Positions 29,363 through 40,277 of a DNA stretch of 44,818 nucleotides are shown in pieces. The notes below the pieces were generated by a model. It had not been told where the DNA came from. It ran no database searches and was given only the letters and a program-made list of their open reading frames with translations. The translations under genes were made by a program, and so were the position numbers. The stretch is from Deltaproteobacteria bacterium (lineage in GTDB: Bacteria > Desulfobacterota > Binatia > Binatales > Binataceae), in contig JAKAVN010000012.1 in NCBI GenBank assembly GCA_021827495.1, positions 1 through 44,818 of the forward strand, written 5' to 3'. Within the stretch, counting starts at the first letter, position 1. Every line of letters begins with the position of its first letter.

Positions 29363-29494
29363 CTAGTGACGTGTCTCGTAAGATTCTGTAGCAAGGCGGA
29401 CGGATTCTCCTCCGGGTTTCGCTTAAGGAGCGCGGCGTTTCGCCAGTTTAAGGTCTTCTCGTTCGCTCCAGATATTTGCGAGCGACGACACTAG
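29363..29494. mobile_element. MITE-like element, copy A (CTAG-bounded, 132 bp)
   Basis: The segment starts with CTAGTGACGTGTCTCG and ends with CGACGACACTAG. Its terminal 22 bases form an imperfect inverted repeat (about 15 of 22). Its right end matches the right end of the element at 39769-39898 in about 18 of 22 positions, and the length (132 bp) is almost the same as that element (130 bp). It codes for nothing. CTAG at both borders is compatible with the TA or CTAG target preference of IS630-type transposases, but the parent is not present. Confidence 0.55.
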
Positions 29495-39005: not shown

Positions 39006-39040
39006 CCCCGCGCGGCCGCGGCGGCGCTGAATCGTCACGG

Positions 39041-39078
39041 AAGGGGGACGCGACTGAGTCGCGTCCCCTTTTCCTTTG
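39041..39078 (+). terminator. Intrinsic terminator after clpB
   Basis: An 11-bp perfect stem (GGGGACGCGAC 39044-39054 with GTCGCGTCCCC 39058-39068), extended by GAA/TTT pairs, has a TGA loop and is followed by TTTTCCTTT. It lies 36 bases after the clpB stop. Confidence 0.9.
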
Positions 39079-39115
39079 TGGCGTTGCGCGGCAAAGTTGC
39101 GCCACAACGGGTGCT

Positions 39116-39392
39116 TCAGACTCGTCGCCGTCGCTCAAAATAGTGCGACGGCCGCAGCACCGTGACGCCCGCGATTCGCTTTCCGTAAAGCGGTTCGAAA
39201 TGTCTTGCGTCGCCGGTCAGCAGGTAGTCGGCCTTCCCGTGAATCGCGGCCAAAAGGATTGGCTGGTCTTTCGGATCGAGCCGAACTGTCGACGAGCTCA
39301 ACATCCTCAAGCTTCCAAAGCCGACTCAGACCGGAACGCTCCAGCCAGGCAGCAGAATAAAGGACATTGGCGTCGAGGAAGACACGGTCCAA
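39116..39392 (-). pseudogene. PIN-domain (VapC-like) toxin, internally deleted and frameshifted
   Basis: The beginning, from an ATG at 39392, reads MDRVFLDANVLYSAAWLERS then GLSRLWKLEDVELV with the first acidic PIN residue (D7). The end, in another frame, reads RLDPKDQPILLAAIHGKADY, then LLTGDARHFEPLYGKRI, and stops at 39116. The central part of about 50-60 residues expected between them is missing, and the two halves are out of frame. The toxin should be inactive. It follows its AbrB-type antitoxin by 26 bases. Confidence 0.82.
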
Positions 39393-39418
39393 GGGGAAGT
39401 CAGCCGGGGCGTACCGCC

Positions 39419-39721
39419 CTACCCACGCCGCTTTGGGGGGCGACGGTGCTTGATCCGGCCTGGGTCGAGGCCCATCCGCTTCACCTCAGCGCGCGCCCGG
39501 CGATAGTCTTCGGCATCGACAGCATTATTTAGCAAAAATTCGGCCCGGCGTTCGGGAGTGTAGACCTCGACCGGCAGTACCGTTGCCGGACGGATCAGGA
39601 TTCCGTCTTCACGCGGCTCGGCAACGACGAACGATCCCTCTTCTATGCCGAGGCGGCGGCGGAGTTTGGCCGGCAGCACCACTGTGCCGCGCCGACCGAC
39701 CTTGCTGGCTAATGTTTCCAT
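39419..39721 (-). CDS. AbrB-family antitoxin
   Basis: A 100-residue AbrB/MazE-fold protein. METLASKVGRRGTVVLPAKL and RRRLGIEEGSFVVAEP form the DNA-binding swapped hairpin. The C-terminal half (PVEVYTPERRAEFLLNNAVD, then AEDYRRARAEVKRMGLDP) is the form usually found next to PIN-domain toxins. The ATG at 39721 is preferred; a longer reading would start inside the inverted-repeat element at 39769. The frame is intact although its partner toxin gene is broken. Confidence 0.85.
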   Translation of the reverse strand: METLASKVGRRGTVVLPAKLRRRLGIEEGSFVVAEPREDGILIRPATVLPVEVYTPERRAEFLLNNAVDAEDYRRARAEVKRMGLDPGRIKHRRPPKRRG

Positions 39722-39768
39722 CCCTTTGGCAGAATAGCTGAAGGTCAGGATGTCAAGCAAATGACCGC

Positions 39769-39898
39769 CTAGTGTCGTGTAACGCAAATATGTTTAGCAT
39801 CCGCGCGCCAGTTATGCCGGAAATAGGCGCGATTTCGCAAAGATTTAGGCAGTATCGCGACACCGGGGCCTATAATTATTTACGTTACACGACACTAG
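39769..39898. mobile_element. MITE-like element, copy B (130 bp, near-perfect terminal inverted repeats)
   Basis: The first 16 bases, CTAGTGTCGTGTAACG, are an exact reverse complement of the last 16, CGTTACACGACACTAG. The match extends to 21 of 22. The inside is lower in GC than the flanks and codes for nothing. CTAG forms both borders. The short length, long inverted ends and lack of a gene are those of a non-autonomous element. The border fits IS630/Tc1-type insertion at TA within CTAG, although the transposase is not seen. Confidence 0.75.
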
Positions 39899-40016
39899 TG
39901 TCCCCGTCCCCCAAACAACTTTACTATTTTGCGTGGCTCATCGGCCATTTTACCCTGAAAAACTGAGACTCAGACTCCACGGCTTTAAGAAAGATATTTG
40001 CGGGACGCCACACTAG
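39895..40016. mobile_element. MITE-like element, copy C, joined to copy B through a shared CTAG
   Basis: Begins at the CTAG that closes copy B (CTAGTGTCCCCGTCCCCC) and ends CGGGACGCCACACTAG. The two ends are imperfect inverted repeats (both have TTTG, GGGACG and ACACTAG when read inward). Its right end matches that of copy B in 17 of 22 positions. Length is 122 bp, and it is non-coding and AT-richer than the flanks. Confidence 0.55.
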
Positions 40017-40277
40017 ACCTTGTGACCGATGAGCGCGCTGCCGCCGGTGCCGGCGCGTGCAGGGATGGGCGCCATGCCCTTCGCGGCCTTACCGCGAGCG
40101 GCGCCATAGGACCGCCCGATCCGGAAGTGTCACCGCTGTATTGAACGAGCGAGTACACGCGCTTTGCAGGGGCGCAACCGGTGCGCCACAATCCGCGCGG
40201 TGCCAAGGCGCGGCGAATGTTTGCCACCTGCCAGGAGCGCCAAGAGCGCGTTGATCGCGCGCCGAGGAGAACCGGTG

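Follow-up and report, generated by a model that had tools for sequence, protein, structure and literature searches.

Stowaway and other eukaryotic Tc1/mariner MITEs are small elements with terminal repeats that target TA and need a transposase in trans. For IS630, experiments cited in PMC2170065 are described there as showing insertion at TA, duplication of TA and a preference for TA within CTAG; the CTAG preference also stands in the title of Tenzen and Ohtsubo 1991, as cited in the same paper. Adjoining MITEs have been described in corals, where tandem arrays of near-identical CMITE repeats were attributed to replication slippage (PMC2872659).

We analysed a 44,818-nucleotide stretch of bacterial DNA, hereafter the window, in which two elements of this general kind stand end to end. 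A preliminary description had placed the first of them at 39769-39898, with terminal inverted repeats that are perfect over 16 bases and identical at 21 of 22 positions when extended, and these values were exact. Element 1 (plus strand) is a 130-bp MITE including its CTAG boundaries. Its left terminal inverted repeat (39769-39790, plus strand) and its right one (39877-39898, minus strand) read CTAGTGTCGTGTAACGCAAATA and CTAGTGTCGTGTAACGTAAATA, respectively. The body of the element covers 39772-39895, between flanking TAs at 39770-39771 and 39896-39897. The closing CTAG of element 1 (39895-39898, not assigned to a strand) is indeed, as had been proposed, the opening CTAG of element 2 (39895-40016, plus strand; body 39898-40013), a degenerate 122-bp MITE with the same type of ends (CTAGTGTCCCCGTCCCCCAAACAACTTT and CTAGTGTGGCGTCCCGCAAATATCTTT, a good match with one gap). 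Both elements therefore have CTAG at each edge, and we interpret the TA of the common CTAG both as the duplicated target of element 1 and as the flank of element 2. Both are short, non-coding and without a transposase. The inverted repeat beyond the CTAG was equalled, for each element, in 0 of 2000 dinucleotide-preserving shuffles. The outer ends of the whole 248-bp block also pair, with 27-nt arms that are 81% complementary. A third element of the window (29363-29494, plus strand; 132 bp) has the same end type, with ends CTAGTGACGTGTCTCG and CTAGTGTCGTCGCTCG.

Element 1 represents a genuine mobile family. Counting the window copy, nine full and two partial copies are present in the genome, dispersed as in an IS630-family MITE. 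The eight further full copies lie on contigs C107, C220, C209, C154, C76, C136 and, twice, C258; one partial copy is ended by a contig end (C91) and the other is a 44-bp remnant (C112). Because several genomic copies exist, a chance origin of element 1 is excluded. The copies are 95-100% identical and stand at unrelated sites, with flanks that all differ; the C107 copy is 100% identical to element 1 of the window. CTAG is found at both edges of every full copy, apart from one of the C258 copies, in which a single base of one edge is changed. Two copies reside inside TAG stop codons, the stop being kept in both cases (C76:656-785, locus L056; C136:15696-15825, L053). With CTAG as the target, entry into a TAG stop codon would thus do almost no harm. 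The copy at C107:15360-15489 (L050) is inserted in frame in an apparent lipoprotein signal peptide, to which it adds 42 codons and no stop; the gene probably codes for an efflux adaptor. At C258:8368-9873 (L051), two inverted copies, separated by about 1.2 kb, stand on either side of a long reading frame in a composite-like arrangement. The repeat family deserves to be named, or masked, in this group of bacteria.

The expectation that element 2 would also be multicopy was not borne out. It is present once in its own genome and has relatives only in other genomes of the family. Its right end recurs on contig C105 and in genomes G012 and G010; in G012, the related element is complete, measures about 108 bp and has ends of the element 2 kind, and the interior of element 2 is 77% identical to a sequence of G072 over 88 bp. 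A further element with the same end type was found on contig C214. Element 2 is probably the older of the pair, and its ends are decayed.

Four DDE_3 (IS630-family) matches were detected in the genome. One belongs to a CTAG-bounded element of 1118 bp including both CTAGs (C88:7316-8433; DDE_3 domain, E 8.7e-18), which has CTAGTGTCCAGTAACT and CTAGTGTTCAGTACCG as its ends. Past the CTAG, they agree with those of element 1 at 21 of 32 and 22 of 32 positions, a level reached by 0 of 20,000 shuffles. The ends of element 1 and of this transposase element are thus similar, not identical. By eye, the DEK, DN and E motifs of the C88 transposase are conserved; its gene is frameshifted near the N-terminus, in the helix-turn-helix region. 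Eighty related transposase loci were taken from other genomes and an end pair was found for 55 of them, using an end-finder that gave a small bonus for CTAG boundaries; with this bonus, 48 of the 55 elements are bounded by CTAG on both sides and 44 begin with CTAGTGT. In G108, transposase remnants are 55-77% identical to the C88 transposase, and their end is CTAGTGTCGTGTA (CTAGTGTCGTGTACCC).

The preliminary description had named as support many genomic copies of about 120-135 bp at TA or CTAG, together with a full-length parent having the same ends. The eight further full copies bear out the first part, whereas no parent with identical ends was found. No intact IS630 parent ending in CTAGTGTCGTGTAACG, as element 1 does, was found in the assembly (92% complete, 264 contigs), which yielded the frameshifted C88 element, other IS630 types and fragments. 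A search of 148 genomes of the class with at most one mismatch gave no parent with identical ends either, the inspected matches outside the own genome being MITEs or isolated ends. Viral contigs gave no such parent, and a 20-base end pattern had no match in 85,000 species. An intact parent in the same genome is helpful, and is not required, for membership of the IS630-family MITEs.

The 248-bp block is located upstream of a minus-strand toxin-antitoxin operon; 48 bp separate it from 39721, where the antitoxin gene probably starts. The adjoining gene (39422-39721, minus strand) codes for an antitoxin of the MazE/AbrB type (Pfam MazE_antitoxin PF04014, E 2.4e-10). It is followed by the remnant of a PIN-type toxin gene (39116-39392, minus strand) with an internal deletion near 39284-39294: as compared to relatives in the family, about 130-150 bp are lost between two conserved halves. 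The position directly upstream of a toxin-antitoxin pair with a broken toxin, noted from the start, was thereby confirmed.

Comparison with relatives revealed empty sites. In G074, G005 and G017, the same antitoxin-toxin locus is continuous and lacks the 248-bp block. Past the locus, the G074 sequence is homologous to window 40023-40080. In G001, a genome of the same genus, the gap between clpB and a transporter gene measures about 190 bp versus 1253 in the window, and contains neither the toxin-antitoxin genes nor the elements. The region missing in G001 corresponds to window 39006-40258, that is the whole toxin-antitoxin and MITE region. For the copy on C76, the site is unoccupied in G001 (75% identity), where a single TAG stop codon stands at the precise point of insertion; in G002, the site can be aligned and lacks the element. 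The bare TAG of G001, together with the CTAG edges of nearly all copies, fits insertion at TA with TA duplication. Because the empty-site relatives are only about 75-80% identical to the window, the ancestral target in the window is not readable at the base level with certainty. The empty sites nevertheless support insertion. The opposite case, a block devoid of other copies and common to all relatives, did not hold.

The proximity of the operon raises the question of whether the repeats, instead of being transposons, are a retained functional structure, such as an RNA hairpin, a promoter or a regulator of the toxin-antitoxin genes. The 48-bp distance to the antitoxin would suit such a role, as would one weak promoter-like match reading toward the antitoxin and single-strand folds that are better than those of shuffled sequences (z scores of -5.4 and -3.2). 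However, the inverted repeats by themselves explain the folds, copies of element 1 occur in unrelated contexts that include stop codons and a signal peptide, and relatives carry the operon without the elements. We consider a functional structure extremely unlikely. Elements 1 and 2 gave no match in Rfam, and with the folding accounted for by the inverted repeats, a regulatory RNA was rejected.

Overall, the data favor, with a probability of about 0.88, a pair of non-autonomous IS630-type MITEs, element 1 having used as its target the TA within the CTAG that borders element 2. The number of copies, their CTAG boundaries, the empty sites and the similar ends of IS630 elements all speak for the insertion of one element into the target site of the other, which was one of the two origins first suggested. 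Both elements were probably moved by an IS630/Tc1-mariner-type transposase cutting at CTAG. Such a DDE transposase of the IS630 family (Tc1/mariner superfamily) would act in trans, cut a MITE at its ends, insert it at a TA, preferably inside CTAG, and duplicate this TA. Because G is the first and C the last base of the element body, insertion into C-TA-G gives CTAG at both edges. Element 2 would first have landed upstream of the toxin-antitoxin operon and then decayed; the younger element 1 would later have entered the CTAG that bounds element 2 on its left, at the TA, so that one CTAG joins both. The end-to-end arrangement would follow from the fact that the end of the older element is itself a CTAG target.

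The geometry is symmetrical, with CTAG at both edges of each element, and is as such compatible with the reverse order, in which element 1 came first and element 2 then entered its right-hand CTAG. We nevertheless regard this order as unlikely, since element 2 has decayed ends, a single copy and nearest relatives that are only about 77% identical, whereas element 1 is identical to another genomic copy. The order that we favor is deduced from divergence rather than from an observed intermediate. The matching outer ends, with their 27-nt arms, could also suggest that the 248 bp form one composite or dimeric unit moved as a whole. Against this, element 1 alone is present nine times and no other 248-bp copy was found; moreover, the two interiors are unrelated and of different age. 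A composite unit is thus even less probable than the reverse order, and the dimeric intermediate initially offered as the second origin was abandoned on the same grounds. Insertion of element 1 into the edge of element 2 remains the preferred reading.

Similar junctions occur elsewhere. Element 1 shares its CTAG with the ends of a second repeat family on C154, C209 and C220, and in the relatives G112 and G018 an IS630 element is adjoined by a small element with CTAG boundaries. The second family is larger, with mostly 127-bp members (for example C154:14453-14579) ending in YTARCAGGTTGCGGAAAAA; 101 end matches were counted in the own genome with at most two mismatches, and many contigs end in it. 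Altogether, four of the nine element 1 copies have a CTAG in common with another element. CTAG occurs 533 times per Mb, about six times more rarely than base composition predicts, and in a non-random contig sample element ends account for about 18% of the CTAGs outside long reading frames. Counting these non-coding CTAGs, about 1.7 shared sites are expected versus 4 seen (P about 0.07, non-random sample); with all CTAGs counted, P falls to 0.002 (same type of sample). Site scarcity may therefore suffice, as about 1.7 are expected among non-coding CTAGs. A special attraction to element ends was not retained, 4/9 being not clearly above expectation at P about 0.07. That element ends are preferred landing sites, building chains of CTAG-targeting elements in non-coding DNA beyond the effect of site scarcity while TAG stops are entered and kept, is a doubtful proposition.

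As compared to known systems, the family is new and unnamed, and its kind is already known: the IS630-type MITE. It resembles IS630-family MITEs in being short, non-coding and multicopy, with IS630-type terminal repeats, a TA target within CTAG and matching ends on DDE_3 transposase elements; it differs in that an intact parent with exact ends was not found and in the single, decayed state of element 2. With the Tc1/mariner MITEs of eukaryotes, Stowaway among them, it shares the TA target, small size, terminal repeats and a presumed transposase in trans, whereas the elements described here are bacterial, CTAG-preferring and low in copy number. The coral CMITE arrays (PMC2872659) also show MITEs adjoining one another; here, in contrast, two different elements are joined at the target site. 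Since each insertion of such an element re-creates the four-base target on both sides, one landing site becomes two, and joined elements can arise without a dimer. The pair is a clear-cut, though ordinary, example of a transposon landing on a transposon.
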